Assembly: GCA_014762625.1 (NCBI GenBank)
Contig: JABURQ010000046.1
Coordinates: forward strand, 1-56,097
DNA length: 56,097 nt
Reading direction: 5' to 3'
Source of the DNA: Planctomycetaceae bacterium
Lineage (GTDB): Bacteria; Planctomycetota; Planctomycetia; Planctomycetales; Planctomycetaceae
In this document: piece by piece, positions 13,926 to 48,489 of the stretch
How the letters are laid out: each line of letters begins with the position of its first letter
Numbering within the stretch: position 1 is the first letter of the stretch
The notes under the pieces: generated by a model
Database searches by the model: none
The model's input: the letters and a program-made list of their open reading frames with translations, nothing else
Told to the model about the DNA's origin: nothing
Position numbers and translations under genes: made by a program

Positions 13926-15158
13926 ATGAGAGTCAGCGAAATCCAAGAGCCATCATCCAACGATCAAGCCCTGGATCGTTCCCCGCAGCCCCCGTCCGAA
14001 CCCAATCTCCTCGTTTTTTCGGATGATTGGGGGCGGCATCCCAGTAGCTGCCAGCACCTGATGAAACAGTTGCTTCCCAGCACTCGTGTCTTATGGGTAA
14101 ACACAATTGGAATGAGGCCTCCGCGATTATCGTGGTCAACGGTGACACGCGGTTGGGAAAAAATTCAGGATTGGGCCGGTCCGCGACAGGAAGAAGACGA
14201 GCAGCTTCCCGAAAATCTGGAGGTCATCAAGCCACTCATGTGGCCCTGGATCAAGCATGGCGCCGATCGCTGGTTGAACCGTAAGCTGTTGGTCCAGCAA
14301 CTGAATAAAGTATTGGAGCGTTATGAGGGCCCCACAGTGGCCGTGACCACCATTCCTCTCGTGGCGGATCTGGTGGGAGAACTCGCGGTCGATCGTTGGG
14401 TCTATTATTGTGTCGACGATTTCGGTCAGTGGCCGGGTCTCGAACAGCAAACATTGACGACATTGGAAGAGAAGCTGATCGATCGGGTGGATACCGTTAT
14501 TGCGGCCGGAACGCATTTGCAAGAACGTTTGTCAAAGTTCCGTCCTGACGTCCAGCTCTTGCAACACGGTCTTGATCTGGAACATTGGTCCGCTCCCTCG
14601 GGGACGCGGGATTCCCAGCTGTCGGCTCTCGAAAAATCACCCAAACCCAGAGTGACGTTCTGGGGACTCATCGATCGTCGTCTCGATCTCGACTGGTTGA
14701 AAACATTGTCACAAAGCCTTGCCTCGGGGAGCATTCATCTCGTGGGGCCGCAGAATGATCCCGATCCGGAGCTTAAAAATATACCAGGACTCCATTTTCA
14801 CCCTCCGGTTGCTTACGACGACTTGCCTGCGGTGGCCGAGATGAGTGACGTCTTAATGATGCCTTACCGAGATGCTGCCGTTACGAGAGCCATGCAGCCT
14901 CTGAAGCTTCTCGAGTATCTCGCGACCGGCTTACCGGTCGTCGTTCGAGATTTACCCGCGAATCGGGAGTGGTCCGATTGTCTGGATTTGGCCGACTCCG
15001 CAGATCAGTTTTGCGAGTTGGTTCAACAGCGGCAGCAATCGGGGACGCCGATGTCACAATCAACCGCCCGCGAGCGACTTCGTCATGAGTCGTGGAGTCA
15101 CAAAGCGGAGCAGTTCCGCGAATTCATAGAAATCACTTCTGAGGAGTGCTCGCCGTGA
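13926..15158 (+). CDS. Glycosyltransferase, GT-B fold (TuaH/GT1-like)
   Basis: 410 residues. It begins with an Arg/Pro/Ser-rich tail, then LLVFSDDWGRHPSSCQHLM. A central CVDDFGQWPG motif and LQHGLDLEHW are typical of a group of bacterial glycosyltransferases like TuaH and exosortase-locus GTs. The donor lobe contains VTFWGLIDRRLDLDWL, LVGPQNDPDPEL and LEYLATGLPVVV. It acts in the cytoplasm on a membrane-bound acceptor by analogy. It follows the FemAB gene by 13 nt. No signal peptide or membrane segment is visible. Linkage and donor are not predictable. Confidence 0.88.
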   Translation: MRVSEIQEPSSNDQALDRSPQPPSEPNLLVFSDDWGRHPSSCQHLMKQLLPSTRVLWVNTIGMRPPRLSWSTVTRGWEKIQDWAGPRQEEDEQLPENLEVIKPLMWPWIKHGADRWLNRKLLVQQLNKVLERYEGPTVAVTTIPLVADLVGELAVDRWVYYCVDDFGQWPGLEQQTLTTLEEKLIDRVDTVIAAGTHLQERLSKFRPDVQLLQHGLDLEHWSAPSGTRDSQLSALEKSPKPRVTFWGLIDRRLDLDWLKTLSQSLASGSIHLVGPQNDPDPELKNIPGLHFHPPVAYDDLPAVAEMSDVLMMPYRDAAVTRAMQPLKLLEYLATGLPVVVRDLPANREWSDCLDLADSADQFCELVQQRQQSGTPMSQSTARERLRHESWSHKAEQFREFIEITSEECSP

Positions 15159-15357
15159 AACCTCTACATGTGAACAAAAGATACATCATGTCGAGCTTTC
15201 CCGAATAAAAGTTGATTTCTGAGGATGCGTGAGCAAACCTTCTGTCAGGGGCGTTCCTGCATCGTATTTCTCGCTTAATTTACTATCTTGAAAGACAAGT
15301 CCAATCAGTAGTCTTCCTGAACAGACGCAAGCAAAAACCTCAACGGTCGATCTTCCC

Positions 15358-16488
15358 ATGGTTCTACATGCGCGGGTGGTTTCGGGAGCCGGAGGTGGTC
15401 CTGAGAAGACTATCTTAAACTCGCCGCGATTTCTCACGGAACTGGGGTACCGGAGCGTTTGTGCCTACATGCATCCCCCGGATGATGTCGATTTTATGAT
15501 ATTGGAGGAGAGGGCAGCAGATGCCGGGGCCACGCTGGCTTCAATCCCCGATCAGGGTTTGAAAGACTTGTCCGTCATTCGCAAGCTTCTCAAGCTCTGT
15601 CGGGAACAGCAGGTCGATATCTGGCATGGTCACGATTACAAGAGCAATGTGCTCGGAGTGATCTTGAGCCAATTCCACCGTATGAAACTAATCACAACTG
15701 TGCACGGCTGGGTTAAGTTTACCTCGCGGACACCGTTCTATTACTGGGTCGATCGCCAGTCTCTCAAATGGTACGACGAAGTGATCTGTGTCTCGGAAGA
15801 TCTTCGGGAGACTTGCATCCAATCTGGAGTCTCTTCTGACCGTTGCCACCTCATTCATAATGCGATTGATATCGAGCAGAATTGTCGGCGACTTGCCACA
15901 TCCGAGGCCAAGCAGAATTTTGGCTGGTCCTCCGACGAGATCGTCATTGGGGCCGTGGGACGTCTCTCCGCTGAAAAAGGCTTTGATTTACTCATCCAGG
16001 CGGTGGGGGAATTGATTGACGCAGGGCACCCGTTACGGCTGGTGATCGCCGGTGAAGGGGATGCTCGTGACTCGCTCGCACAACTGATCAACCAGCAATC
16101 GGAACCAGATCGATTTCAGTTACTGGGGCATCGCAATGATATTCCGGATCTCATGCAGGCAATGGATATGTTTGCGCTCAGCAGCTACCGTGAGGGACTT
16201 CCGAACGTGGTGCTGGAAGCGATGGCGTTTGAAGTGCCTGTGGTGTCGACGAAAGTGGCCGGGATCCCTCGGCTTATCCAACATAACGAAAACGGTGTTC
16301 TGGTCGACGCTGGAAATGAAACTGAACTGCGAGAGGCGTTGTCTCGGTTAATCGAGCAACCCGCATTGCGTGAAAAACTCTCCATCGCGGGTCGGCAGAC
16401 CATTGAGCAGGAATTCAGTTTCCAGTCCCGGATGGAACAAGTGGCCGCTCTCTATGACCGACTCCTATCCCCAAATTCCCAAAATTAA
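15358..16488 (+). CDS. GT4 family glycosyltransferase
   Basis: 376-residue GT-B enzyme. The N-terminus has VVSGAGGGPEKTILNSPRFL, the glycine-rich acceptor-side loop of one GT4 group. The donor lobe carries IGAVGRLSAEKGFDLLIQA and IAGEGDARD, and EX7E lies at E279 and E287 (EGLPNVVLE). About 200 nt separate it from the previous gene. That stretch has no gene or clear promoter, so this may begin a sub-operon with the VanZ-like gene 9 nt after its stop. The start is supported by family alignment, because only a few residues precede the first strand. Confidence 0.92.
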   Translation: MVLHARVVSGAGGGPEKTILNSPRFLTELGYRSVCAYMHPPDDVDFMILEERAADAGATLASIPDQGLKDLSVIRKLLKLCREQQVDIWHGHDYKSNVLGVILSQFHRMKLITTVHGWVKFTSRTPFYYWVDRQSLKWYDEVICVSEDLRETCIQSGVSSDRCHLIHNAIDIEQNCRRLATSEAKQNFGWSSDEIVIGAVGRLSAEKGFDLLIQAVGELIDAGHPLRLVIAGEGDARDSLAQLINQQSEPDRFQLLGHRNDIPDLMQAMDMFALSSYREGLPNVVLEAMAFEVPVVSTKVAGIPRLIQHNENGVLVDAGNETELREALSRLIEQPALREKLSIAGRQTIEQEFSFQSRMEQVAALYDRLLSPNSQN

Positions 16489-16497
16489 TCGAAACTG

Positions 16498-17964
16498 ATG
16501 TCATCCCCTGTTCGTGACAACTCATTCAATCGGCAGATCATCGTTCGCTGGCGTATCGCCACGTGGAGTTATCTGGCGCTGGTGATCTATGGATCGTTGG
16601 TCCCGTTACAGTATCGCCCTCTGGACTGGGATCAGGCGGTTGACCAATTTCGGAGTATTCCTTTTCTGCAACTGGATATTCAGCATCGTGCAGACTGGGT
16701 CGCGAACATTTTACTTTTCATTCCACTCTCGTTTCTCACATATGGTTTATGGATCCGTCCCTGGTACGGGCAGTCCCGCACTGTACTGACGACGCTCTCG
16801 TTACTGGTGGGTTTATCGGCATTGGCCTGTACCATTGAATTCACTCAACAATGGTTTCCTCCTCGCACGGTTTCACAAAATGATATTGTCGCGGAAAGTC
16901 TGGGAGGACTGATCGGGTGCATTCTGTGGTTTTTGGTTGGAGATCAGGTTCGAAGTTGGTTCTCACGAGGTCATCAGGTCTTTGATTCGTTTCGGCTCGT
17001 GGAGCGAATATTACTCGTTTATACACTGGCATTCGCGGTCTACAGTGTGATGCCACTTGATTTAATCGTTTCTCTCGAAGAAATAGAACTAAAGCGAGCC
17101 CAGGGGAAAATTCAGTTCCTGCCGCACCTCCAGTGGCCACAAACGATTGAAAGCTGGAGCGCCGTCTTAATGCAGGTCTTTCTGTTTGTTCCCGTTGGGA
17201 TGTATTTCGTATTTGCCTTTGCGCGAAAATCGTTCCGCCCGGTGGTTCGTTCGAGCCTGCTGATGATGGTGGGACTGGCGTTCGGCATCGAACTCGCACA
17301 ACTTTTCGTCTATTCCCGCTTCAGTAGCGCGAACATGCTGTTGCTGAAAATGGTGGGGGGCGTGATGGGGATTGTCACGGCCCGACGGCTCCTGATCCGC
17401 AGGCAACGCTATCATGGGAAAACAAAGTCTCTGGTGCCGCCCAGAACCATTGGCGGCTTCACAGGTTACTTACTGTTGAATCTGCTCTATGCCTCTTTTC
17501 TGTGCGGCGTCTTTTGGTGGCCGCTTGAAGCCGTGGACGACAATGTCGCCTTTCAAATGCGTTGGAATCATTTCTGGCAGGTCCCCTTTACGAATTACTA
17601 TTGGGGAACGGAATTTAACGCCTTGACACAGATTCTGCAGAAACTCCTGCTGACCATGCCGATGGGGTATTTGTTTCGGGCCACGCTCCAGCGTTGTCCG
17701 GTGCCACAACATCAATTGGCACCGTTGACGGCCTGTGGAACGATCATGCTGGCTGCTTTCACGATTGTCATTGAACGGGGACAGGCCTGGTACTCCGGTC
17801 GTTATCCCGATATCACCGACAGCTTGATTTACGGTCTCGGGATGCTGACGGGTGCAGGAATCTACCAACTGCTGATCAGTCAAACATTTCTAGAAAACCG
17901 CTCGGTTTCGACCTCTCACTCCCGGGTGAAGACTTCAGAAACAGATATTGTGCGACTCGACTGA
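16498..17964 (+). CDS. Membrane protein with three VanZ-like repeats
   Basis: 488 residues, about twelve hydrophobic segments. Three successive units share the VanZ layout of a helix with LL-x2-P-x-G/S, then E-x2-Q or E-x3-Q with an aromatic, then D/N and a G-rich helix. Unit 1: NILLFIPLSFLTYG and IEFTQQWFP. Unit 2: VFLFVPVGMYF and IELAQLFVYSRFSSANMLL. Unit 3: LLTMPMGYLF and IERGQAWYSGRYPDITDSL. VanZ-type proteins are common in exosortase/EPS loci and in glycopeptide-resistance operons. In this context a structural or assembly role for polysaccharide export or lipid carriers is more likely than antibiotic resistance. The mechanism is unknown. The triple repeat is unusual. Confidence 0.82.
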   Translation: MSSPVRDNSFNRQIIVRWRIATWSYLALVIYGSLVPLQYRPLDWDQAVDQFRSIPFLQLDIQHRADWVANILLFIPLSFLTYGLWIRPWYGQSRTVLTTLSLLVGLSALACTIEFTQQWFPPRTVSQNDIVAESLGGLIGCILWFLVGDQVRSWFSRGHQVFDSFRLVERILLVYTLAFAVYSVMPLDLIVSLEEIELKRAQGKIQFLPHLQWPQTIESWSAVLMQVFLFVPVGMYFVFAFARKSFRPVVRSSLLMMVGLAFGIELAQLFVYSRFSSANMLLLKMVGGVMGIVTARRLLIRRQRYHGKTKSLVPPRTIGGFTGYLLLNLLYASFLCGVFWWPLEAVDDNVAFQMRWNHFWQVPFTNYYWGTEFNALTQILQKLLLTMPMGYLFRATLQRCPVPQHQLAPLTACGTIMLAAFTIVIERGQAWYSGRYPDITDSLIYGLGMLTGAGIYQLLISQTFLENRSVSTSHSRVKTSETDIVRLD

Positions 17965-18120
17965 CGAGTCCTCTCAGTTTCCTGGTGCTGTCGAGAACAG
18001 CGACCGGTGCCCGATGGCGCTGACCGGAAGGCTCGAATTCCACGGGACTGGGAAGACAGTGCGTCTGGATGATTTGATAAATCCTTCAAATGAAGCTCTC
18101 GATTAGATTGGAGAACGATT

Positions 18121-19098
18121 GTGAAAAAAGTATTGGTCACCGGGGCGGCGGGATTCATTGGCTCTCACCTCACGACTCAACTGGTTGAACAAGGTTATGA
18201 GGTGATCGCTTTCGATAATCTCTGTACCGGTAATCTCCATAATTTGAAGCATATTCGGGAACCTTATCGTTTCGTTCTCGGAGATGTGAAGGACGCAGAC
18301 GCCTTGATGTCGGCTCTGGAGGGTGTCCAAGTCGTCTTTCATCAGGCGGCGATCGCATCAGTCCCACGCAGCGTCTCATTTCCACTGGAGTCGCACCAGG
18401 CATGCGCCACGTCGACTTTGAATCTCCTTGACTGCTGCGTTAAAGCCGGCGTGAAACGTGTGGTTTATGCTGGTTCTTCCAGCGCCTATGGCGACAACGA
18501 GAATCCCGCGCTGACCGAACAGGAGCTGCCCTCGGTTCACTCTCCCTATGCGGCAGCGAAGCTGTCTGGAGAACTGTACTGCCAAGCCTTTGCCAACTGC
18601 TACGATTTGGAAGTGGTGCGACTTCGCTATTTCAATATCTTCGGACCACGCCAGGATCCCAACAGTCCTTACTCGGCGGTCATTCCGATTTTTGTAAGCC
18701 TTCTGTTGCGAGGTGAGCGTCCGACAATTTTTGGCAACGGACAGCAAACTCGAGATTTCACCTTCGTCAACAACGTGGTTCAGGCCAATATTCTCGCCGC
18801 CAAAACTCCTGGTGTTTCTGGCAGGGTCTACAACGTGGCCACGGGCCAGTCGATCAGTGTGCTGGAGATGCTGGAAAGCATTTGCGAGATTCTCGAAATC
18901 CCCTGCGATCCCTACTTTGCCGATCCGCGATTGGGAGATGTGCTGCACTCTGGAGCGGATATTTCCAGAATTCAGGAGGAATTGGAATTTGAGGAAGAGG
19001 TTCCTTTTCTGGATGGATTGGAGCAGACAGTGCACTACTATCGGGAACAATTTGAAAGTACCAAGCTACGAGAAAGTTCAGTGGCTTCCCTGAATTGA
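18121..19098 (+). CDS. NAD-dependent UDP-sugar 4-epimerase (SDR, WbpP/GalE-like)
   Basis: 325-residue extended short-chain dehydrogenase. NAD-binding loop GAAGFIG is at 8-14, catalytic Ser in GSSSAYG near 118-124, and the Y143-x3-K147 pair in SPYAAAK. HQAAIASVPRSVSFP and LRYFNIFGPRQDPNSPY are typical of the WbpP/Gne branch, which epimerises C4 of UDP-GlcNAc or UDP-GlcNAcA, so it probably supplies an amino-sugar donor to the upstream glycosyltransferases. The start is GTG at 18121; the MKKVLVTGAAG beginning leaves little doubt. It lies 156 nt after the VanZ-like gene and closes the exopolysaccharide region. Substrate specificity is inference. Confidence 0.92.
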   Translation: MKKVLVTGAAGFIGSHLTTQLVEQGYEVIAFDNLCTGNLHNLKHIREPYRFVLGDVKDADALMSALEGVQVVFHQAAIASVPRSVSFPLESHQACATSTLNLLDCCVKAGVKRVVYAGSSSAYGDNENPALTEQELPSVHSPYAAAKLSGELYCQAFANCYDLEVVRLRYFNIFGPRQDPNSPYSAVIPIFVSLLLRGERPTIFGNGQQTRDFTFVNNVVQANILAAKTPGVSGRVYNVATGQSISVLEMLESICEILEIPCDPYFADPRLGDVLHSGADISRIQEELEFEEEVPFLDGLEQTVHYYREQFESTKLRESSVASLN

Positions 19099-22973: not shown

Positions 22974-25900
22974 ATGATGTATCGATTCCTCACTTTCGCG
23001 TTGATGTTAGTCTGTCTGACCTGCCGGTTGTGGACGCAACCAGTGGTCGCCGACGAACCGGTCGATTATCTCAAGCAGATCAAACCTCTACTGCAGACGA
23101 AGTGTTATTCCTGCCACGGAGTGCTCAAGCAGGAAGCTAACTTGCGGCTCGAAACCCGCGCACTGATGCTCCAAGGCGGAGACAGCGGTGCAGCAGTCGT
23201 TCCCGCAAAAGTCGATGAGAGTCTGATTCTGGAACGCATTACCGGGGATGAATTCACACGGATGCCGCCGGCGGATGAGGGAGCCTCGCTCAAACCAAAA
23301 GAAATCGCACTGATCAAACGCTGGATTGCAGAGGGGGCTGCGGCTCCAGATGAAGAGATCCCCCTGGCTCCCACCGAACACTGGGCGTTCCAGCGGATCG
23401 AAAAACCGCTGTTGCCGGAGCCCTTCCGCAATGACGATTCGATTCATCCGGTCGATGCGTTCCTGGCGGCCAAACGCCTGGAACTCGGTCTGAAGACGCA
23501 ACCACAGGCCGAGCGTTCGATTCTGATCCGACGACTGTATCTCGATCTCGTCGGCCTGCCCCCGACCCTCGAACAGTTGCACGACGAGCGTCCCTGGCCG
23601 CTGATTGTGGACGAGTTACTGTCGAGTCCGCAATATGGCGAACGGTGGGGGCGCCACTGGATGGACATCTGGCGTTACACCGACTGGTACGGACTGGGAG
23701 CCCAGTTGCGTAACAGTCAGAAACATATCTGGCACTGGCGGGACTGGATCGTGAACTCCCTCAACGCCGACAAAGGGTACGACAGAATGATCCAGGAAAT
23801 GCTCGCTGGAGATGAGCTGGCACCGAACGATCCGGAAGCCATCGCGGGAACCGGCTTTCTCGCCCGGAACTATTATCTTTTCAACCGCACCACCTGGCTC
23901 GACAGTACGATCGAACATACCGGCAAAGCGTTTCTCGGCCTGACCCTGAACTGTGCCAAATGCCACGACCATAAGTACGATCCAATTACGCAGGTTGATT
24001 ACTACAACTTCCGCGCAATCTTCGAGCCGCACCAGGTGCGTCTCGATCCCGTGCCGGGAATCACCGATTTCGAGAAAGATGGTCTGCCGCGCGTGTTTGA
24101 CGATCACATTGATGAACCGACCTACTTGCACCGCCGTGGCGATCCCCAAAACCCCGACAAAGACACAAAAATCGAACCGCGCGTACCGGAGTTGTTCGCC
24201 GACTTCCAGCCGGAGGTGCAACCGGTCTCTCTGCCCGCGGAAGCCTACGCCCCCGCCGTGCGAGACTACGTGCAACAAGACCGGCTACAAGCCGCCCGCA
24301 ATGAAATCGCAACAGCCGAGAACGAACTGGCAAAGGCCCAACAGACGCTTGTTGCCTGGAAAAAAGAACAATTGGAGAAGCCAGAACCCGCTGCTACCGA
24401 GAAACAACCCTTCGATTTCTCCGATAGCTTTGACAAACCGAATCCCGAAGCGTGGGAACTCGTCGGCGATAGCTGGGAATATCACGCAGGAACGCTGCGA
24501 CGAACCACTTCAACCCGTGAGAAAGAGGTCATTCGGTTCAAGCAGCCGATGCCGCACGATTTCGAAGTCACCTGCCGCTACACCACGACCGGTGGAACCA
24601 CCTACAAGTCAGTCACTTTTCGTTTCGATGAAGCAGACGACGGTCAGTATGAGAACTTCGTGTATTCCAGTGCCTACGCAGCAGGCTCGAAGATTCAGGT
24701 GGCCATGACGCGCCACGGAAAGAACACTTACCCCTCCGACGGCGCAATCAGAAAGGATGTCGAAGTCGGCAAGAGTTACGAACTGAAATTCGCCGTTCGG
24801 GATCGACTCGTGAATGTCTGGTGGGACCGTGAATTCGTGCTGGCCTATCAGTTACCGGACCGATGTCCGGAGGGGACACTATCCCTTTCCGGATTTGATG
24901 CCACGGTGGCGTTCGACTCGATCCGAATCCGTTCTCTTCCGGTCGGCGTGAAACTGACGGCTGCCGGCAACAAGGGAACTGCATCTCCGCAGGATCCCGA
25001 ACAACAGGTCAAGCTGGCCGAGGCGAAAGTCATCCTGGCAACAGCTCGTTTGAAATCTCTTCAGGCAACCATTGCCGCGGATAAAGCCCGGTACCTGCCT
25101 CCATCCAGCGAAAGCGTCGACGAATTGACTCAACAGGCGGCCTCCGCCCAGGCGGAACGGCTACTTGTTGAAGCCGAGTACGAAAAACTCGCTGCCGGTG
25201 CGGATGCCAACAAGCAGAAAGCGGCCGAAAATAAGCGGAAACAGGCCCAGCAGAAACTGGACGCCGCGAAGAAGGGGGCAGGGACCTATGCGAGCCTGCG
25301 GGCGTCCTTCAAAGCGCTGGAAACACCGGCGCACAAGGAGCCCGACTATCCGCCGGTCTATTCCCCCGTCAGCACGGGCCGCCGGCTTTCGCTGGCCAGG
25401 TGGATGACGTCTCGCGACAACCCGTTGACCGCCCGCGTTGCCGTCAATCATGTCTGGCTGCGTCATTTCGGCGAACCGCTGGTCGAATCGGTGTCTGACT
25501 TCGGCCTGCGTGCCAAGACACCTGAGTACCGCGAACTGCTGGATTATCTCGCCGCTGAATTCATGGAGTCCGGTTGGAGCTTCAAGCATCTCCATCGACT
25601 GATTGTTACATCTGAAGCGTATCGATTGAGTTCGTCAACGCTCGACGCTGATTCCGAGACTCTGGCCCGCGATCCCAATAATCATTTCTATTGGCGAATG
25701 AATACCCGCCGCATGGAATCTCAGATAATCCGCGATTGCCTGCTGCAACTCGCCGGGCGACTCGACCTCACGATGGGCGGTCCTTCGCTCGACGTCGGGA
25801 ACAAGAGCAACCGACGCAGCATCTACTTCAAGCACTCACGCGACGCTCAGGATAAATTCCTGACTATGTTCGACGATGCCGACCTGCTGCAATGTTACCG

Positions 25901-26225
25901 ACGCAGCGAAAGCATCGTGCCCCAGCAGGCGCTGGCACTCTCGAACAGTGAATTGTCGCTAAGCACGGCCGCTCAGATCGCCCAGCAGATTTCCGAACGG
26001 CATCCCGAGGTCAACCGCAACCAGTTCACCGCTATCGCGTTTGAACTACTGCTGGGACGGAAAGCCAATGAAGCGGAACTCGCCGAGTGCGATCGATACT
26101 CTCGGGAATTGCAGGAACTCCTCGAGAAATCCGATCAACTCTCTGACGAACAGTTGGAAAGCCGTGTTCGTGTACGCCTCGTGCATAGCCTGTTCAACCA
26201 CAACGATTTCATCACTATCCGGTAA
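22974..26225 (+). CDS. PSCyt1-DUF1549-DUF1553 secreted protein with inserted beta-sandwich domain
   Basis: 1083 residues, signal peptide about 1-24. Order: planctomycete cytochrome C domain with CX2CH at C44, C47, H48; DUF1549 about 155-350, with its own [11 protein letters not shown] motif; coiled coil near 430-470; a jelly-roll, LamG/DUF1080-like insert about 479-656 ([15 protein letters not shown] to DSIRIRSLP); a second Ala/Lys-rich coiled coil about 670-780; and DUF1553 about 800-1060 ([20 protein letters not shown]). Likely periplasmic or surface haem protein; the family is thought to take part in polysaccharide handling but the reaction is unknown. It is always near a DUF1501 partner, here 7 nt downstream. 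Confidence 0.93.
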
Positions 26226-26232
26226 ACGAACC

Positions 26233-27663
26233 ATGCATCGACGACATTTTCTCAATCACTCGGCACTCGGTTTCGGAACCCTCGCACTGCACGCGATGTT
26301 GCAGCAGGATGGATTCGGTCAAGAGACTTCCGGCGAGTGGACACCTCCCAACGGTCTGCCGCATTTTGCCCCCAAAGCGAAAAGCGTGATCTGGATGTTC
26401 ATGCGCGGGGGGGTCAGCCACATGGAGTCGTTCGATCCCAAGCCGGCGCTCACACAATACGCCGGTATGTCAATTCCCGATTCCCCCTTCTCGGACGTGC
26501 AGGATCCGGAAAAACTGAAAAAAGTCCGTGTAGTGGTTGTGAACGACGCCAACGGACAGCAGCGGAACAAGCTCTATCCCCTACAGGTCGGGTTCAAAAA
26601 GTATGGTGAGAGCGGCATCGAAATCAGCGACTGGTTCCCGCACACTGGTTCGGTTGTTGACGATATTTCAATCGTCCGCTCGATGTGGACCACTGACGAC
26701 AATCACGGCGCCCAGGTGCAATTCCACTCCGGCAGGCACATGCTCGATCCGCGCGTCCCGACGATCGGTGCCTGGATCACCTGGGGATTGGGAACGCTCA
26801 ACGAGAACCTACCACAGTTTATCAGCATGGGCCCCCGTTTCTTCGACAAGCGCGACGGACATTATCTCGGCCCGGCGTATGACTCAGTCTCGCTGAAGGT
26901 CGACCAGAACAATCCGCTCGACTACGCCAAGCCGGAAGGAGACATCACCCGCGACGAACAGCGACTCGGTTTCGATTTGGTCAATCGCCTTAATAAGCTG
27001 GCGAAAGAAGACTACCCACGTGATGCCGCACTCGAAGCCCGCATCAAATCCTACGAACTTGCCTTCCGCATGCAGACCGCCGTACCGGGTGTGATCAATT
27101 TCAGTTCAGAAACTCCCGAGACGCAGAACCTCTACGGTTTCGACCAGAAGGAAACCCGACCGTTCGGGGAACAATTGCTGGCTGCCCGGCGGTTCGTGGA
27201 ACGGGGAGTTCGTTTCATCCAGATTCAGCACGGTTCGGGAGCCGCCGGTGCCTGGGATCAGCACTCCAACCTGAAGGCCCGGCACTCCGAGTTGGCGATG
27301 CAGGTGGACCGTCCCATCGCCGGATTGATCAAAGATTTGAAACAACGCGGGCTGTTCGACGAGACGCTGCTCGTATTCGCAACCGAATTTGGACGGACTC
27401 CCGGATCGCAGGGTTCCAATGGACGCGACCATCATCCCTACGGCTTCAGTATCTGGATGGCCGGCGGCGGGCTGAAAGGGGGTATCGCCCACGGAGCCAC
27501 CGACGAGATCGGATATCACGCGGTCGAGCATCCGCACTACGTCACCGACGTGCACGCCACTCTGCTGAAACAACTCGGACTCGACTCACACAAGATGGAA
27601 ATCCCCGGCCAGAAACGCCTGGAACGCGATTACGGCCACCCGATCGAGGCGATTATTGCATGA
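26233..27663 (+). CDS. DUF1501 domain Tat-exported protein
   Basis: 476-residue sulfatase/phosphatase-superfamily-like protein. The N-terminus [20 protein letters not shown] has the twin Arg and hydrophobic stretch of a Tat signal. Core motifs: [61 protein letters not shown]. The last resembles the metal-binding end of alkaline-phosphatase-fold enzymes. The start at 26233 follows the preceding stop by 7 nt; a longer open frame from 26041 merely overlaps the upstream gene. Partner of the PSCyt1/DUF1553 protein in almost all planctomycete loci. The molecular function is not established. Confidence 0.93.
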
Positions 27664-27714: not shown

Positions 27715-28047
27715 ATGCAATCACCGACTGATGATGACAATGAAACGTGGATCATTGAATTTGGTGATGAGATTATTCAGAAGAAATCACAAAACGGGTT
27801 TGAGTCGCTCAACGATTACGAGCAATTGGTTTTTCTGGTCTGGATTGCCGACTTCAGCATTCGTAATGCGGGAGATTTAGTCTCCGGAAAAGATATCCGG
27901 CCAGGTTTCAAACAGGAAATCCTGTCTCTCGCCCGGAAGCTGAGTTATTCTGTTATGATTCAAGCGTTCGACCAACCCGATGAAGATCTCATCGAGAACT
28001 ACTACAATCTCTTTGACAGTATTTGCGATGAGTTACGCAAAGCTTGA
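27715..28047 (+). CDS. Small acidic protein, DUF4375/DMP19-like
   Basis: 110 residues, acidic, no signal peptide and no membrane segment. The stretch LNDYEQLVFLVWIADFSIRN resembles the start of DUF4375/DMP19 proteins (LSxEEQLVYxVxxLExEVNNGG), and the rest is predicted helical (DEDLIENYYNLFDSICDELR). DMP19-type proteins are DNA-mimic or regulatory proteins in some bacteria, but this match is partial and the function here is unknown. It lies 51 nt after the DUF1501 gene and 9 nt before the dioxygenase gene on the same strand, so it is probably co-transcribed. It could be a regulator or chaperone of the pathway. Confidence 0.65.
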   Translation: MQSPTDDDNETWIIEFGDEIIQKKSQNGFESLNDYEQLVFLVWIADFSIRNAGDLVSGKDIRPGFKQEILSLARKLSYSVMIQAFDQPDEDLIENYYNLFDSICDELRKA

Positions 28048-28056
28048 CTGAGGTTT

Positions 28057-28824
28057 ATGAGCAGATATCTTATGAACCCCCAGGAATTAAAAGCCCATTA
28101 CGATCGCGACGGCTTTCTCGTCGTGCCGCAATTTCTTCCCGACGAAGACTTCGCCGAACTGAAGAGAGAACTCGATCACTATATCCAGACGGTCGTTCCC
28201 ACGCTCCCGGACAGTGACGCGTTCTATGTCGATAAATCTCGTCCGGAGACTCTGAAGCAGTTACAGCATATGGGTGGCGATCCGTTCTTCAGGGAATACG
28301 CGAATCATCCACGCTGGAAAGAACTGGCCGAACTGCTGCTCGGCGAAGAGGCGAACTCGCGGGGGGCGGAATGGTTTAACAAGCCGGCGGGAACCAACGC
28401 ACCGACACCCGCCCACCAGGACAACTACTATTTCAACTTCGATCCGCCGAACGTGCTAACCATGTGGCTGGCACTGGAAGACGTGGACGAAGAGAACGGT
28501 TGCCTGCGGTACGTTCGTGGTTCCCATCGGCAGGGACGCCGGCCGCATGCATCCAGCCAGGTCCTCGGGTTCTCACAGGGGATCACCGACTTCGGTCCGG
28601 AGGACGAAGCGAATGAAGTCTGTATGAGTCTCAAAGCAAACGACTTATTGATCCATCACGGATGGACCGTTCATCGTGCGGAACCGAATCGCTCCACGAC
28701 GCGCCATCGGCCCTCTTTCGCCATTGTGTTTCAGGGGGTCAGTTGCCAGATCGATGACGAAGGCCGCCAGCGATACGAAGCAGAGATGCGGGCTCAACAC
28801 GAAGCACTGGGACTCAAAAACTGA
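28057..28824 (+). CDS. Phytanoyl-CoA dioxygenase (PhyH) family Fe(II)/2-oxoglutarate enzyme
   Basis: 255-residue cytoplasmic enzyme of the double-stranded beta-helix type. The iron triad is visible: H120-x-D122 in AHQDNYYF and H206 in HHGWTVHRAEPN, with an Arg (TTRHRPSF) ten or so residues later for 2-oxoglutarate. GSHRQGRRPH follows the usual GSH turn. Family members hydroxylate alkyl, amino-acid or phosphonate-type substrates with O2 and 2-oxoglutarate. Its neighbour 20 nt downstream is an amidohydrolase::aminotransferase fusion, which suggests oxidation of an amine or amino-alcohol substrate before further breakdown; that is inference. Two Met codons lie at 28057 and 28072; the first is used here. 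Confidence 0.9.
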   Translation: MSRYLMNPQELKAHYDRDGFLVVPQFLPDEDFAELKRELDHYIQTVVPTLPDSDAFYVDKSRPETLKQLQHMGGDPFFREYANHPRWKELAELLLGEEANSRGAEWFNKPAGTNAPTPAHQDNYYFNFDPPNVLTMWLALEDVDEENGCLRYVRGSHRQGRRPHASSQVLGFSQGITDFGPEDEANEVCMSLKANDLLIHHGWTVHRAEPNRSTTRHRPSFAIVFQGVSCQIDDEGRQRYEAEMRAQHEALGLKN

Positions 28825-28844
28825 TCTCGCGGCGGAATTCTCTC

Positions 28845-31235
28845 ATGACTGACAGTGAGCCTGCGGCAGACACCTTCCCCGTCTTGAACTCTGCCGACGT
28901 CTTCCGGTTTCCTGCCCGCGATGAAGATCGCAGGCTATTCGAGCGGTTGCTGCAAGACTTTGTTCCGCCGGATGCGTTTGACGCTCACGCGCATCTGTAC
29001 GACCTGAGGCATCTTGCTCCGGCGGCCCGGCCAGAGAACTTCGCGGTCTCTCCCGAAATCGGACTCGAGCAGTTGATCGAGAAAATGCAGCAATGGATGG
29101 GTGACCGTGTCGTCAGCGATGGTCTCTACTTTCCGTTCCCGATGAAGCACGTTGATTGCACCGCCGCCAACCGATTTCTGGCGGAAACCCTGAAGGACCA
29201 TCCCGGTTCGCGCGGCCTGATGCTGGTGCGTCCGCAGGACGACCCGGCCGAAGTCGAACGGGAATTCCGGGAGTGCGGTTTCGCCGGGTTCAAGGTGTAT
29301 CATGTTTTTGCCGATCGACCTGAAACCTTCCTTGCGGAACAGCACGAATTCCTGCCGGAATGGCTCTGGGAGCTGAGCCACCAGTACGGGGCCTGCATCA
29401 TGATGCACATGGTCTTGCCCCGGGCGCTGGCTGATCCGCGGAACCAGACATACATCCGGCAGCATTGTCTGAAGTACCCTGATGCGAAGCTGATTCTCGC
29501 CCACGCCGCACGCGGCTTTAATGCGGGACACACCGTGGAAGGGATTCATTCTCTTCGTGGTCTGGACAACGTCTGGTACGACACATCCGCAGTCTGTGAA
29601 CCAAGTGCCTTGGAAGCCATTCTGGAAACTTGCGGGCCGACTCGGTTGATGTATGGCAGCGACTTCCCCGTTTCGGAACTGCGAGGACGCTGTGTCTCGA
29701 TCGGCGATGGATTCTATTGGCTCCACGACGACAACGCCGAATGGGATGGCTGGTTACACGCTCAGCCGACACTGGTGGGGATTGAATCGCTCCTCGCACT
29801 ACAGCAGGCCTGCCGCACGCTGAAGCTGATCGACCGCGACATCGAAAAGATTTTCGATACCAACGCACGGCAGTTACTTGGTCTGCGTGAATCGACCGGA
29901 GAAAACGTTCAAGATCAGTACCAGCAGGCGAAACAGATCATTCCGGGAGGAACCCAACTGCTTTCCAAGCGGCCGGAGATGTTCGCTCCTGGCCAGTGGC
30001 CCGCTTACTTCGAACAGGCCATCGGTTGCGAAGTGATCGACAATGACGGGCGGCGATTGATCGACATGTCTCACTGCGGGATTCTCTCCTGCATTCTGGG
30101 GTTTGCCGATCCGGACGTGAATGCAGCCGTCATTCGCCGCGTCCATCTAGGAGCGATGTCGACGCAGCAGACCTTCGATGAGGTGGAACTCGCCAGGCTG
30201 CTGACCGAGATCCATCCCTGGGCCGACCAGGCGCGTTTCACCCGCAGCGGCGGCGAAGCGATGGCCGTCGCTGTGCGGATTGCCCGGGCTCATTCGAGGC
30301 GCAGTAAACTGGCAGTGTGCGGCTATCACGGCTGGCACGACTGGTATCTGGCGGCGAATCTGCCTGTTGTCACTGACGCGGAAGACCAATCCAGTCGTCA
30401 ACTTGACTCGCATCTGCTGCCCGGACTCGAAGCCCGTGGTGTTCCTACCGAACTGGCCGGCACGGTCGAGACGTTCCGCTACAATCAGCTCGAAGAACTG
30501 GACGCAGCCCTTGCTCGTTGCGGCGACGACCTGGCGGCCATCGTGATGGAACCGACCCGCGGCGTCGATCCAGCGCCGGGATTTCTGGAAGGCGTCCGCG
30601 AACGGGCCGACCGCGCCGGTGTGCCGCTGATCTTCGACGAGATCTCGGCCGGCTGGCGCTACTGTCTCGGCGGGGCACATCGGCTGTACGGCGTGAATCC
30701 CGATCTCGCGGTTTTCGCGAAGGCGATGAGTAACGGTTTCGCCATGGGAGCCATCATCGGCCGGGAAGAAATCATGCAGGCGTGCCAGGAGTCGTTCGTT
30801 TCCAGCACCTACTGGACCGAAGGAATCGGACCGGCGGCCGCTGTCGCGGCGATCAGAAAGATGATGCGCGTCGATGTGCCGAGGCATCTGCATCAACTCG
30901 GCACGCGCGTCATGGAGGGCTGGCGGTCGCTGGCCGAAAAGCACGGTTTGCCGATCACCGTTGCCGGTCGTCCTGCCTCCTGCCGGTTTCAGTTCGAGCA
31001 TCCCGAGAATGCAGCCCTGCTGACCCTGATGACGACGCTGATGCTCGATCGAGGATACTTGGCCGCGGGAAGCTGTTCGATCACCTGGGCTCATCAAATG
31101 CAACAAGTCGAGCGGTATCTGACAGCTCTCGATCAGGTGTTTGAAGAGCTGGCGGAAGCGATCGCGAGGGACGACATCCCTGCGCGACTCAAAGGACCGG
31201 TCAAGCATAGCGGTTTCCAGCGACTGGTTGACTGA
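28845..31235 (+). CDS. Amidohydrolase :: class III PLP aminotransferase fusion
   Basis: 796-residue two-enzyme protein. Residues about 40-345 form an amidohydrolase-2-like TIM barrel with metal-binding DAHAHLYD, MMHMVL, ILAHAARG and YGSDFPVSE. Residues about 360-790 form a fold-type I, class III aminotransferase close to glutamate-1-semialdehyde aminomutases: PGGTQLLSKRPEMF, SGGEAMAVAVRIARAHS, CGYHGWHDWYLA, IVMEPTRG, IFDEISAGWR and PLP-lysine K626 in AVFAKAMSNG. The open frame is continuous through the junction, so this is a real fusion. It probably hydrolyses or decarboxylates a cyclic or amide intermediate and transfers or shifts an amino group. It lies in a 20-nt-spaced run with PhyH and the PD40 gene. 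Substrate unknown. Confidence 0.9.
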   Translation: MTDSEPAADTFPVLNSADVFRFPARDEDRRLFERLLQDFVPPDAFDAHAHLYDLRHLAPAARPENFAVSPEIGLEQLIEKMQQWMGDRVVSDGLYFPFPMKHVDCTAANRFLAETLKDHPGSRGLMLVRPQDDPAEVEREFRECGFAGFKVYHVFADRPETFLAEQHEFLPEWLWELSHQYGACIMMHMVLPRALADPRNQTYIRQHCLKYPDAKLILAHAARGFNAGHTVEGIHSLRGLDNVWYDTSAVCEPSALEAILETCGPTRLMYGSDFPVSELRGRCVSIGDGFYWLHDDNAEWDGWLHAQPTLVGIESLLALQQACRTLKLIDRDIEKIFDTNARQLLGLRESTGENVQDQYQQAKQIIPGGTQLLSKRPEMFAPGQWPAYFEQAIGCEVIDNDGRRLIDMSHCGILSCILGFADPDVNAAVIRRVHLGAMSTQQTFDEVELARLLTEIHPWADQARFTRSGGEAMAVAVRIARAHSRRSKLAVCGYHGWHDWYLAANLPVVTDAEDQSSRQLDSHLLPGLEARGVPTELAGTVETFRYNQLEELDAALARCGDDLAAIVMEPTRGVDPAPGFLEGVRERADRAGVPLIFDEISAGWRYCLGGAHRLYGVNPDLAVFAKAMSNGFAMGAIIGREEIMQACQESFVSSTYWTEGIGPAAAVAAIRKMMRVDVPRHLHQLGTRVMEGWRSLAEKHGLPITVAGRPASCRFQFEHPENAALLTLMTTLMLDRGYLAAGSCSITWAHQMQQVERYLTALDQVFEELAEAIARDDIPARLKGPVKHSGFQRLVD

Positions 31236-31255
31236 AAGACGATAGCAGGTCGCTC

Positions 31256-32440
31256 GTGACAATATCACAGCAAGACACAATGTCCCAACACAGCTCGATG
31301 TTTTGGCAGTCCTGCATTCGTGGGGTGTTGCTCTTGCTGTTGATCTCGCATGCAGTATGCAGCGTCCTGGCAGAGGAGGAAACCACGCTTGTGTTTTCGG
31401 TGCGCAAGTGGGAGGGCGAGTATGAATCGCGTGATGTTCCTGGTGGTGTAAAAACAACCCCGTCGACATCGTCGATCTATTCGATTCGCGCCGATGGGAC
31501 CGGGTTGAGCAAGCTTGTGGAAATCGAGAATGCGGTCTGTGCAGCGCCCGTGTTCAGTCCAGATGGTAAGTGGCTGTACTTTCAATCGAATGCGTCGGGC
31601 AATTATCAGCTGTACCGCTGCCGGCCAGATGGGACGAAACGAGAGCAACTCACGTCCGATCAGCGACCTGGGCCTCCCTGGAAGACTGTCTACGGCCTGC
31701 AAATGACAGCCACAGGACAACTTCTGTGCACAGTCTTTGATGGAAAACAGGGTTGCGTCGCAGTGCTCTCCCCCGATGGTTCCCAGATGAATCTGGTCGC
31801 ACCACACCTGGGCTACCTGTACATGTCGGCAATGAGCCCGCGCGGCGATGCGTTGATCGCATCGGGGCCGGCTAGCGGCTACCGGTTGTGGCTGATGAAG
31901 CTTCCCGACGCGTTTCGAAACGGCGCTGACCGGTTGACCAGACCAACCGTCAATCTGGCTCCGCAGCACCCGGAGTCTTTTGCTCCTCAATTCACTCCGG
32001 ATGGAAAGACCATTGTTTATTTCCGCCGCGACGGCGACATTTATCGTGTCGAATCCGACGGCACCGGGCATCAGCGGTTGACCACTGGCAATCAATACGT
32101 TGAGTTTCGTCTTTCACCTGAGGACCACCACGGTTCCACGGACGGTCCGCAGGTATCTCCTGACGGAAAGAAGGTCGCCTTCATTGCGTTGCGAGGCGGC
32201 GTTCCACAGGTTTGTACGATTGACATTGATGGTTCCCACCTGCAGCAGTTGACCAGTCGCGACACGGCTTGCGGACGAGTGCGGTGGAGTCCTGACGGCA
32301 AACGAATCGCCTTCGTCTCGTTCGTCGGCAAGTACCCGCAACTGTTTCTGATTGATGCGGACGGGGGGATGCCCAAGCAGTTGACCAGCGTTAACGGCGC
32401 CATCTATTTCGTGAATTGGAAACAGCAGAGTTCAAAGTAG
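31256..32440 (+). CDS. Secreted PD40/TolB-like beta-propeller protein
   Basis: 394 residues with an N-terminal hydrophobic segment ending near AVCSVLAEEE, so exported or anchored. At least five PD40-type blades with the SPDGK-x-L/I-x-F pattern are seen (FSPDGKWLYFQSNASGNYQL, FTPDGKTIVYFRRDGDIYRV, VSPDGKKVAFIALRGGVPQV, WSPDGKRIAFVSF). TolB-like propellers bind proteins or peptides; a substrate-binding or sensor role is possible. It starts at GTG 31256 or ATG 31280; both give the same signal. It follows the fusion gene by 20 nt and probably ends the operon. Confidence 0.85.
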   Translation: MTISQQDTMSQHSSMFWQSCIRGVLLLLLISHAVCSVLAEEETTLVFSVRKWEGEYESRDVPGGVKTTPSTSSIYSIRADGTGLSKLVEIENAVCAAPVFSPDGKWLYFQSNASGNYQLYRCRPDGTKREQLTSDQRPGPPWKTVYGLQMTATGQLLCTVFDGKQGCVAVLSPDGSQMNLVAPHLGYLYMSAMSPRGDALIASGPASGYRLWLMKLPDAFRNGADRLTRPTVNLAPQHPESFAPQFTPDGKTIVYFRRDGDIYRVESDGTGHQRLTTGNQYVEFRLSPEDHHGSTDGPQVSPDGKKVAFIALRGGVPQVCTIDIDGSHLQQLTSRDTACGRVRWSPDGKRIAFVSFVGKYPQLFLIDADGGMPKQLTSVNGAIYFVNWKQQSSK

Positions 32441-33905: not shown

Positions 33906-34103
33906 GTGACCATTGCACTCCCGCTGAAAGGGGGGAGTAAACAGGTCGATAAATCCGATGACAGACATAAGAATCAGCGATCAATCCATCTGAAGCCAGA
34001 TATTTCTCAACTCTTGCAAGAGATCGAAGACGGAGAACCGAAAGACTTCGCTAATCGTTTCGATGCACTACTTGTCTCGAAGTTGCAGGACATGTTGCCG
34101 TAG
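33906..34103 (+). CDS. Doubtful small ORF or gene remnant
   Basis: 65 codons from ATG 33906, with a coding-like second half (DISQLLQEIEDGEPKDFANR) rich in Glu/Asp and Leu and with G/A-starting codons. It overlaps the 3' end of the convergent acyltransferase by 36 nt. No family was recognised. It may be the tail of a lost gene. The region from 33773 to 34067 is otherwise empty. Confidence 0.25.
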   Translation: MTIALPLKGGSKQVDKSDDRHKNQRSIHLKPDISQLLQEIEDGEPKDFANRFDALLVSKLQDMLP

Positions 34104-34784
34104 GGTCTCGGTAGCACATCTGATGTCTTCGGTTGCAGGACGTGTCAGCCCGAGTTGCTTAGCCGACTGACATGGACCGATGCGGACCTCGATCCTGGTC
34201 CTCAAGCGTGGCAACCACGCGTTAGGTGGAAATGCGACATACGCTCCGTGAATGAACACGGGGACTACGGGAACATCACATCGCGTCAGCAGGATGGCAA
34301 TACCGGGCTTAAACTTTTGCAAATTTCCGTCAAGAGAGCGTCTGCCTTCAGGAAACCAAACCAAGTTATCACCTTGTTCTAAAATTGTGACTGCCGGAGC
34401 GAGCGCGGTGAAGTCCTCATCAATCGGAATGACTCGGGTAAGCCAACTCAGGAAGCGGCGCAGCCGATTACGCAAGACCGTACTCTGTTTTCCCGCGCAA
34501 TATGTCTGCTGAAGTAGGGACAAAGGCAGGGCTGCTCCGAGAATAAGGGGGTCGAGCGGACTGGCGTGATTCGGAGCGATAATGAACGGTCCCGACGCAG
34601 GAAGATGTTTGCCACCAACGACAGACAACCGAAACAGGAATCGTATTAATACCCAGTTGACGACATACCAAAGTGCGTGGGCGATCTGCGCGAGCGAACT
34701 TCGCGGTCGAAGCCATCGGCGCTGTCGATCTTCGAGCCACCGCTCAGGGTGCTCCAACACATCTTGGTACCTGTTGTAGTTCAT
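34068..34784 (-). CDS. Lysophospholipid acyltransferase (PlsC-like)
   Basis: 238-residue membrane-associated acyltransferase that would move a fatty-acyl group to a lysophospholipid or glycerol-phosphate. Motif HX4D is at H73 and D78 (NHASPLDP), block II FLSWLTRVIPID follows, FPEGRRS at about 144-150 is the third block and VVPVFIHGAY the fourth. A hydrophobic helix lies at about 35-52. The open frame continues 97 codons upstream to 35075, but that part lacks homology and would overlap the oleate hydratase end, so MNYNRYQDVLEHPERW at 34784 is taken as start. The neighbour is an oleate hydratase, giving a fatty-acid context. Confidence 0.85.
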   Translation of the reverse strand: MNYNRYQDVLEHPERWLEDRQRRWLRPRSSLAQIAHALWYVVNWVLIRFLFRLSVVGGKHLPASGPFIIAPNHASPLDPLILGAALPLSLLQQTYCAGKQSTVLRNRLRRFLSWLTRVIPIDEDFTALAPAVTILEQGDNLVWFPEGRRSLDGNLQKFKPGIAILLTRCDVPVVPVFIHGAYVAFPPNAWLPRLRTRIEVRIGPCQSAKQLGLTRPATEDIRCATETLRQHVLQLRDK

Positions 34785-35044
34785 TCGATGACAGCACGCT
34801 TTCGCAACGGCGGATCTGCAATGTCCTAGACTTACTGTGCGATGCGATACATTGAAAATTTCGGGAAGATAATGTTCTCTCGATTTGATTGTAACTCTCT
34901 GAAAATCGGCGTGCAAAGCGGATCTTCGACAGGTATGGGCGACCGCTGCACTCAAAAATAAAGGGGCAAAGTTCACAGGGCGATGATCCCATGAGGCTTG
35001 GTCATGACTTAGAGCTGTCGATAAATATGGGCTTCGTCTGCCTC

Positions 35045-36637
35045 CTACTTGATCAATGTCCATAATGCCCGCCATAACACGGCCGGGTTTCGGTCTCCAC
35101 GGTAGATTGGCGTTTCCTGCTGCTTGAGGTCAAGCAGTTTGTAAACAGCTCGTTGAGCACTGCGAATCGAATACTCGACTGTGAACACACAGTCCTTCGG
35201 GATTTCCGTAAACTGTCCCAGAAATGCGAAGTTCTTGGCCTGCTTTGGAACGACTTCAGGTCGATCTCCCGCCTGGCGTGGCATAAACTGGCTTGTGATA
35301 AAAGGCATCATGCAGGGAATACAGTTGGCTCCAGCAAAAAACCTTGTTGCACGATCGCCCAGCCGAAGATGGTGGGCCAGTTCCGCTAACAGTTCCTCGC
35401 CACTGCACTCTGACATTTTTTTCTTTACAGAATCTCCAATTCGATCACCGAACAAGCCGTATCCCCAAAAAACATCGACGTCCTCTGGTTGATTGAGGAA
35501 ATGAGGTTGGTGAGCCAGTACGACTGACAATCTCCAACTGGAATCCTTGAATGTGACCAACCCACCTGTTCCCGCGCGATTTCCGGTGAATTCTTCCATA
35601 AACCGGAAAAAGTCGTGGTTGCGAAGGGTGACAGTGAACGATTCCCACTTGGTTTGGTCGATGCGAGAACAGAAAGCTTGCGGATTACCGAAATCCGGAG
35701 ACTGGGAAGCAATGTTCTTCCAGAGTTGCCAGGAACCGATGGATTCTGTCTGTAACTTTGGAGGCGTTTGCATACTCCCCAGGCTGGAATTCTCTGTCAT
35801 TGACCCAAGTGTTACGAACAGAAAATCCTGGGCTCTCAATGCGAGTTCCGTCTCTTTTCCATGTACGCGAACTCGCAAGCTTCTCGCCTTAAATTGCGAA
35901 TCCTGAAGTTCAAATTCGATATCGGTCACTTCGGTCTGCATCCGAAAATTGACACCCTGGTTTTGCAACCACTCAAACAGAGGCAGGATCAAAGAATCAT
36001 ATTGGTTATATTTGGTTCGCAGGATCCCTTCTAACCGATTTAACCCCGGAAACAGGTGTATGAATCGATGCATGTAACGACGCATTTCAGCCACCGCATG
36101 CCACGGCTGAAATGCAAACATCGTGCTCCACATGATCCAGAAGTTTGTTTGCAGAAAATCGAGGGAGAAGTATTCCTGGATAGTCGTCGTGCCCAGTGAT
36201 TCTTCATTTGCGAGAAGAAGCCGACCAAGTTCCCACTTGTTCCTAAAATTCAAGCCGAACTGCGGAGCCTCAATCTTCTGACCGGTACGCACCAGACGAC
36301 TCTTTGAAGAGGTGACATATTGTCGTGAAAACTCCTTGATCTCAGCAGACACGCTCTTCTGACTGTCAGTCAGCGTGGGGATGGAATCAAATAAATCGAA
36401 TGTGCAACCGAAATGCTCTTCAAACATTCGGCCACCTCGAATCAAGTAGCCGGTTTCGGGGGAGCCACTCCCATCCAGGCTTCCCCCCAGTCGGTCTGAC
36501 TGTTCCAAAATATGAATGTTGCTGCCTGAAACTTGCCCCTCACGGATCAGCAACGCTGCTGCTGACATTGCAGCAATCCCTCCGCCGACAAGATAAAATT
36601 GTGAAGTCTCCCTGTCGAAGCCAGTTGATGTTGGCAT
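35045..36637 (-). CDS. ohyA: Oleate hydratase (FAD-dependent)
   Basis: 530-residue fatty-acid hydratase, once called myosin-cross-reactive antigen. It adds water across the cis-9 double bond of oleic or linoleic acid to give 10-hydroxy acids, with FAD as structural cofactor. The dinucleotide-binding GGGIAAMSAAALL lies at about 18-30, and the diagnostic block RGGRMFEEHFGCTFDLFDSI at about 67-86 is nearly unchanged from known enzymes. FVTLGSMTENSSLG and the C-terminal TEIPKDCVFTVEYSIRSAQ are also typical. No signal peptide is present. Composition is more AT-rich than the flanking planctomycete genes, which hints at transfer. It ends near the acyltransferase gene, and a small ORF lies 71 nt upstream. 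Confidence 0.95.
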   Translation of the reverse strand: MPTSTGFDRETSQFYLVGGGIAAMSAAALLIREGQVSGSNIHILEQSDRLGGSLDGSGSPETGYLIRGGRMFEEHFGCTFDLFDSIPTLTDSQKSVSAEIKEFSRQYVTSSKSRLVRTGQKIEAPQFGLNFRNKWELGRLLLANEESLGTTTIQEYFSLDFLQTNFWIMWSTMFAFQPWHAVAEMRRYMHRFIHLFPGLNRLEGILRTKYNQYDSLILPLFEWLQNQGVNFRMQTEVTDIEFELQDSQFKARSLRVRVHGKETELALRAQDFLFVTLGSMTENSSLGSMQTPPKLQTESIGSWQLWKNIASQSPDFGNPQAFCSRIDQTKWESFTVTLRNHDFFRFMEEFTGNRAGTGGLVTFKDSSWRLSVVLAHQPHFLNQPEDVDVFWGYGLFGDRIGDSVKKKMSECSGEELLAELAHHLRLGDRATRFFAGANCIPCMMPFITSQFMPRQAGDRPEVVPKQAKNFAFLGQFTEIPKDCVFTVEYSIRSAQRAVYKLLDLKQQETPIYRGDRNPAVLWRALWTLIK

Positions 36638-48427: not shown

Positions 48428-48489
48428 TTGTGAACCTCAACCAACTTCTCGATACTAATGTCGACGAACATCAGCAAAGAAATACAAAC

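Follow-up and report, generated by a model that had tools for sequence, protein, structure and literature searches.

The window analysed here, the 56,097-nucleotide (nt) contig JABURQ010000046.1 of a Planctomycetaceae bacterium, carries on its plus strand a gene in which an amidohydrolase is fused to a class III pyridoxal phosphate (PLP) enzyme. The fusion gene (28845–31235) is one continuous frame of 796 amino acids (aa), with the amidohydrolase half, hereafter AH, at residues 1–350 (28845–29894, +) and the PLP-enzyme half, hereafter AT, which is glutamate-1-semialdehyde (GSA)-aminomutase-like, at residues 351–796 (29895–31235, +); the same labels are used for the corresponding separate genes. 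Pfam recognises both halves, Amidohydro_2 (PF04909) over residues 46–347 with an E value of 7.6e-17 and Aminotran_3 (PF00202) over residues 387–724 with an E value of 5.9e-41. Upstream lies the gene for a 255-aa PhyH-type Fe(II)/2-oxoglutarate dioxygenase (28057–28824, +; PF05721, E 1.6e-35), and downstream the gene for a PD40 beta-propeller protein of 394 aa, predicted to be exported (31256–32440, +; PF07676, E 4.9e-27). The gap on either side of the fusion is 20 nt. An earlier note on this DNA had described a PhyH-type enzyme, a continuous 796-residue fusion and a propeller separated by 20-nt gaps, and the frames and Pfam assignments agree with that description. PhyH, AH and AT recur together in other genomes, fused and unfused, and we tentatively read them as one catabolic module.

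Active sites and spread of the fusion

The AH residues D46, H48, H50, N109, K150, Y152, H188, N200, H220, R223, D246 and D273 are invariant in all 96 sequences tallied, which comprise 67 fusions of a first kind (F1), 14 of a second kind (F2) and 15 AH proteins standing alone. H48, H50, K150, H188, H220 and D273 among them are candidate metal ligands. With this candidate set, and with 62.4 bits against a gathering threshold of 26.4 for PF04909, the AH half is a member of the amidohydrolase superfamily.

In the AT half, Y494, H495, W497, D499, E569, R572, D598, E599, K626, S653 and W657 are invariant in all 97 rows tallied (33 F1, 14 F2, 19 from unfused gene trios, 15 of the type found in pseudaminic-acid (Pse) clusters and 16 others; three 'sep' rows and the outgroup were left out). 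K626, which the earlier note had assigned to the PLP enzyme, is the PLP lysine and is present in 33 of 33 aligned fusions, window included, as well as in every tallied row. K626 and a PF00202 score of 140.9 bits against 30.5 place the AT half among the class III PLP enzymes. Amino transfer itself is a prediction from sequence, and the class III entries related to the AT half include, by name, a lyase, a phospholyase and racemases.

A species-level scan with one genome per species, of which the best 80 loci were kept, contains many loci that match both halves. An alignment of the window fusion with 32 of these relatives, several of them truncated N-terminally, gives identities of 40–72%. The loci of the scan and the tree labels cover Planctomycetes, Verrucomicrobia, Bacteroidota, Spirochaetes, Lentisphaerae, Hydrogenedentes, Armatimonadota, Acidobacteriota and Clostridia, and the fusion itself is conserved over several phyla, the first four of these and others. 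Among 392 genomes in a survey of the window's phylum, 24 match the fusion at E ≤ 1e-100, and 17, the window's own genome included, span both halves by their listed ranges. In a survey of 170 genomes of the window's family the fusion is matched in 68. Of these, 57 are counted as fusions, G502 and G476 on the length of their frames, and the other 11 as AT alone; two of the 11, G485 and G396, start at most 133 bases from a contig end and might be truncated fusions. In a plasmid collection no record matched more than 80% of the fusion, and two matched the AT half. As separate adjoining genes, AH and AT occur at loci L016 and L065.

Because many relatives match both halves in one frame, the fusion is not a sequencing error. 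Two separate genes joined by such an error would have undone the earlier note's proposal, and the continuous frame, the 32 aligned relatives and the 57 of 170 family genomes with a fusion rule this out.

The dioxygenase, unfused trios and two fused lineages

H120, D122 and H206 of the window PhyH, which the earlier note had pointed out, all align with the His, Asp and His of human phytanoyl-CoA dioxygenase that we take to be its metal ligands, and on this alignment they are candidate metal ligands of the window enzyme. The PF05721 score is 123.8 bits against 22 and, with the HxD...H pattern present, the protein belongs to the PhyH family.

Across the 170 family genomes, PhyH is found in 111 at E ≤ 1e-30 and in 82 at 50% identity or more, and the AT domain in 113 at E ≤ 1e-65. 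AT and PhyH (at least 50%) are both present in 77 genomes and both absent from 52 (odds ratio 22, Fisher p 2.5e-14 without correction for relatedness), AT being present in 77 of the 82 PhyH genomes. For distances, PhyH was taken at 46% identity or more and lower rows were left out: in the 80 genomes with both, AT and PhyH share a contig in 49 and lie within 15 kb of each other in 42, within 5 kb in 37 and within 1 kb in 18. By genus codes the 42 close pairs are spread over 19 genera. The link of PhyH to the fusion alone is weaker than its link to the AT domain; PhyH (at least 50%) is present in 35 of the 57 fusion genomes (Fisher p 0.016) and lies within 12.1 kb of the fusion in 12, own genome included. 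At 39 fusion loci selected from the phylum and family surveys, the PhyH count of 10 is biased, because L167–L172 were picked for a nearby PhyH; the family-wide distance and co-occurrence counts are free of this bias. In a genome of the same genus, G428, whose fusion is 82–83% identical to that of the window, a 35-residue remnant of the PhyH C terminus (L131 9029–9133, 63% identity) stands directly upstream of the fusion. The adjacency of PhyH and fusion is therefore older than the window genome, and PhyH can be lost: it is a recurrent, not an obligatory, partner of the module.

The same three enzymes also occur unfused. At L189, L191 and L197, AT (40–41% identical to the window), PhyH (61–63%) and AH (35–37%) are three consecutive separate genes; PhyH and AH overlap by 4 nt at L197, and PF04909 recognises the AH proteins at L189 and L197. 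Across 35 PhyH stretches away from a fusion, which are our choice among the PhyH places in the family genomes and include several of one genus, 19 contain AT, 12 of them AH as well, and 16 contain neither. None of the 20 control stretches, set at preset coordinates in seven related genomes, contains PhyH, AH, AT or any of the neighbour families HpcH, SDR, Gfo/Idh, BhcC, SSS, FCD and AKR. The stretch counts omit L188, which duplicates L227, as well as L228–L230. Another kind of fusion occurs within this PLP family: at L191 the unfused-type PLP enzyme (9817–12165, −) has an N-terminal D-2-hydroxyacid dehydrogenase (PF02826, E 1.3e-52, and PF00389), and a frame in G442 is similarly long, at 802 aa.

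In the AH tree, a branch with good support divides the 67 F1 rows, window included, from the 14 F2 rows, and each group adjoins unfused AH genes; L168, an F2-kind fusion, matches both Pfam domains too. A single clade of all fused AH is rejected (p-AU 8e-40), for a group that was named after the tree was seen and with four rows labelled as standing alone dropped, L152, L028 and L038, which end at contig ends, and L037, which is too short. L065 and the second lineage join this tree as long branches, flagged by the tree tool. In the AT tree, made by a quick method with L003 as its sole outgroup, the F2 ATs nest among the F1 ATs (SH-aLRT 96), and the trio ATs group in a single clade of their own. 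An earlier AT tree had two outgroups, one of which, the L002 row, was in the wrong reading frame and formed a very long branch.

With F2 ATs inside the F1 ATs and AH in two lineages, closely related PLP enzymes were joined to two AH lineages, or the AH half was replaced; because the AH tree is rooted at its midpoint only, two fusion gains look the same as one fusion followed by AH replacement and fissions. Whichever history holds, the AH–AT pairing appears to be under selection. Two fused AH lineages on closely related PLP partners are strong evidence that the two predicted steps belong together.

Surrounding genes

Three further genes of the window precede the PhyH gene on the same strand. 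The PSCyt1/PSCyt2/PSD1 protein identified by Pfam (22974–26225, +) is possibly the product of the first gene of the run leading to PhyH and the fusion. It is followed by a DUF1501 gene (26233–27663, +; PF07394, E 1.1e-125, Pfam row 26203–27663), whose start we place at MHRRHF and whose open frame is listed from 26041, and by a small gene of 110 aa without a recognised family (27715–28047, +), which ends 9 nt upstream of PhyH. The earlier note had placed a PSCyt1/DUF1501 pair here, as Pfam does, and had called the small protein DUF4375-like; this label is dropped, the protein having no Pfam match even at E ≤ 1. Judged by spacing, the PD40 gene is probably in one transcription unit with PhyH and the fusion, and its product is probably exported, judging by eye from an N-terminal hydrophobic stretch.

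These outer genes do not accompany the fusion elsewhere. In 95 stretches with a fusion, a split pair or the unfused trio (sets of 39, 37 and 19), a search at E ≤ 1e-6 gave one weak PD40 match (L156, 33%) and no match to the small gene. DUF1501, the member of the PSCyt/DUF1501 pair that was counted against controls, occurs near 8 of 39 fusion loci and 2 of 20 controls, no clear excess, and the surface role suggested for the pair finds no support in conservation. A conserved five-gene operon, whose order the earlier note had proposed to look for in other genomes, is accordingly rejected. That note had also held that neighbourhoods differing across species would count against it; the enzymatic core recurs, in its favour, and the outer genes do not. 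On present evidence the small gene, the PSCyt/DUF1501 pair and PD40 stand outside the conserved unit.

The neighbours of other fusions vary, and several families recur near both fusions and the unfused trio, as annotated on representatives: an HpcH/HpaI (GarL-like) aldolase, a gluconate-5-dehydrogenase-like SDR, a Gfo/Idh protein and a BhcC-like fold-III PLP enzyme, together with sodium symporters or a galactonate-like MFS transporter, FCD-GntR and IclR-type regulators, and BNR_2 and sulfatase proteins. The counts at the 39 fusion loci (HpcH 10, SDR 6, Gfo/Idh 5, BhcC 3, SSS 6, FCD 12) show that none of these neighbours is always present. Close SDR relatives (E ≤ 1e-75) are found in 94 of the 170 family genomes, 85 of which also have AT (odds ratio 16). 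The window genome has SDR (67%), Gfo/Idh (51%) and HpcH (35%) relatives together on another contig, C185, where a sodium:solute symporter gene (PF00474, E 6.5e-38) separates SDR from HpcH. By Pfam, the region of this contig designated L255 (2678–8349) carries Gfo/Idh, SDR, symporter, HpcH aldolase and GNAT genes on one strand, and this gene run is probably a second operon of the same pathway. For the BhcC-like protein the window genome has only 29–32% relatives.

Several other features were noted. A secreted 'LFVDDYLI' family, present at 8 of 39 fusion loci and 1 of 20 controls, is represented in the window at 51613–52992 (+), where it weakly matches the glycosyl hydrolase 32 N-terminal family (E 7e-5); the member at L031:6453–7916 has no glycosyl hydrolase 32 match. 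The stretch 13926–19098 (+), upstream of the fusion, encodes glycosyltransferases, a VanZ-like protein and an epimerase and is probably a surface polysaccharide cluster. Downstream lie an oleate hydratase gene (35045–36637, −; NF010584, 702.6 bits, above the cut-off of 567), overlapped by a PlsC-like acyltransferase gene (34068–35075), and a gene for a neutral/alkaline ceramidase-like protein (48430–50019, +; PF04734, E 3.4e-16).

A proposed catabolic module and its known relatives

From the observed architecture, the conserved candidate catalytic residues and the gene linkage, we propose, with a probability of roughly 40%, that PhyH, AH and AT form a catabolic module for a sugar-acid-like compound carrying nitrogen, a reading whose direction, order of steps and substrate class we infer. 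It is suggested because the three enzymes recur, fused and unfused, with dehydrogenases, a symporter and an aldolase of the 2-oxo-acid type nearby. The sodium symporter would import the compound, and the Gfo/Idh and SDR dehydrogenases would oxidise it; PhyH would hydroxylate it or oxidatively strip a substituent; lactone opening, or cleavage of an amide or N-acyl bond, would fall to the AH half, and the shift or removal of the amino group to the AT half; and the HpcH/HpaI-type aldolase would split the resulting 2-oxo acid. An intermediate may pass directly between the AH and AT halves. The dedicated pathway suggested in the earlier note is well supported as far as the linkage of oxidation, hydrolysis and PLP chemistry goes, by co-location, by unfused gene runs and by two AH lineages; its amine or amino-acid-like substrate is still conjecture, and the neighbours favour a sugar-acid-like compound carrying nitrogen.

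Several observations weigh against this proposal. HpcH and SDR accompany only 10 and 6 of the 39 fusion loci, and the HpcH of C185 is just 35% identical to the query. Twenty-two of the 57 fusion genomes lack PhyH at 50% identity or more, the PhyH gene has decayed in G428, and seven genomes have AT and PhyH on one contig at a distance of 0.9–6.2 Mb. The sample contains related genomes, so that the p-values overstate independence. Finally, unfused ATs with an AT-half identity of 47–58% are found among the best 80 loci, many of them sitting with PseB, PseC, PseG, PseI, a cytidylyltransferase and Gfo/Idh or AKR. Because the ATs of Pse clusters stand in a biosynthetic setting and have the same tallied active-site residues as the fusion ATs, the direction of the module is not readable from its AT. 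L048 adds a mixed case: its AT falls in the Pse-type clade, yet the stretch contains an unfused AH and lacks all six Pse-type genes surveyed.

These standalone ATs motivate the alternative that survives best, unlikely as we hold it to be: a biosynthetic module that produces or alters an amino sugar, or else a small molecule, destined for a surface glycan, as the AT relatives in Pse clusters would. The identical active-site positions and the glycosyltransferase and epimerase genes upstream in the window (13926–19098) are in its favour. Pse clusters were annotated on representatives from L045 and L058, and six proteins of the L045 cluster were searched by tblastn at E ≤ 1e-20. In the AT-only loci, which serve as a positive control, at least one of the six Pse-type genes is found at 27 of 42 loci and at least three at 18 of 42. 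Against this, loci with both halves have them at 2 of 39 (PseC-like only; L138 and L158) and 0 of 37, and the same search found none at the 19 trio loci and none in the window. The Pse-type ATs moreover form a separate clade in both AT trees, L048 excepted, and transporters, an aldolase and catabolic-type regulators recur at the loci with both halves.

A second alternative, distinctly improbable in our view, takes the AH half for a non-hydrolytic decarboxylase of the gamma-resorcylate or ACMSD type, the fusion then coupling decarboxylation with PLP chemistry. Relatives of the AH half with solved structures are weak profile matches (E 2.6e-7 to 9e-3); they include gamma-resorcylate, salicylate and 2,3-dihydroxybenzoate decarboxylases, and a single-sequence search gave ACMSD at E 0.35–0.44. 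The best of them, 3cjp (E 2.6e-7), is a predicted dihydroorotase-family amidohydrolase, and the matches are too weak to decide. The invariant K150 beside the other candidate ligands, in the order HxH, Lys, His, His, Asp, argues for hydrolysis, since this set presumably resembles that of binuclear amidohydrolases with a carbamylated lysine.

The catabolic proposal can also, as a long shot, be given a more specific substrate: the module would break down a nonulosonic or diamino sugar acid, for instance pseudaminic acid or one closely akin to it, with an AT recruited from or shared with its synthesis and a lactonase or deacylase joined to that AT twice. The sodium symporter, 2-oxo-acid aldolase, dehydrogenases and sialidase-like BNR_2 proteins would provide the degradative setting, and an unstable amino-lactone or amino-aldehyde might be handed directly from one site to the other.

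That PhyH, fusion and propeller are mere neighbours in one Planctomycete operon, with the fusion alone as the functional unit and PhyH serving some other process, seems very unlikely: the 22 fusion genomes without PhyH, the 16 of 35 PhyH stretches without AT and the outer genes that do not follow the fusion speak for it, but it is weakened by the co-occurrence and closeness of AT and PhyH across the 170 family genomes (77 of 82 PhyH genomes; 42 of 80 within 15 kb) and by the unfused AT–PhyH–AH gene runs. A phosphonate route was considered and rejected, the match of PhyH to a methylphosphonate hydroxylase model being weak (E 3.8e-5) and that of AT to a hydroxy-aminoethylphosphonate lyase model reaching 82.6 bits against a cut-off of 525.

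No description of the fusion or the module was found in the titles and abstract openings of open-licence papers. Three well-known enzyme families form this module, and gene-by-gene annotation would give a generic hydrolase, an aminotransferase and a dioxygenase; the fusion is a concrete entry to its pathway.

Each component has known relatives. The AH half has PF04909 in common with Amidohydro_2 enzymes such as 3cjp, 4dlf ('Amidohydrolase 2') and gamma-resorcylate decarboxylase, but matches them weakly, and no close solved relative was found. The window PhyH has the PhyH domain and the aligned His/Asp/His in common with human PHYH, SnoN, EvdO2, SnoK and the methylphosphonate hydroxylase model; it matches solved PhyH chains at E 5e-16 or weaker and misses the curated equivalog cut-offs. 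The AT half shares the class III PLP family and the PLP lysine with HemL and PRK06209-type enzymes, its best PDB and NCBIfam matches, and its best solved relatives are GSA aminomutases. Unlike these it is fused to an amidohydrolase and falls far under the curated cut-offs, with 176.7 bits against an equivalog cut-off of 527.3, so that a true HemL is rejected, and 221.6 bits against 486 for PRK06209. The motifs GGTQLLSKRPEM and CGYHGWHDWY are present in the AT half and its own relatives and absent from the GSA aminomutases compared; the L002 row, read in the wrong frame, was disregarded in the alignment of AT relatives.

According to part of one paper, a class III aminotransferase lies between pseF and pseG in Aeromonas (PMC7874193); this enzyme may belong with the Pse-type ATs. 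The Pse-cluster enzymes differ from the AT half in being unfused, in their biosynthetic neighbourhood and, save L048, in their separate clade. They resemble it in sequence, at the 47–58% of the unfused loci among the best 80, and in their invariant residues. Because the tallied active-site residues are shared, the fusion may offer a handle on the Pse-cluster aminotransferase, and the module may help to explain the role of that enzyme in pseudaminic-acid clusters.

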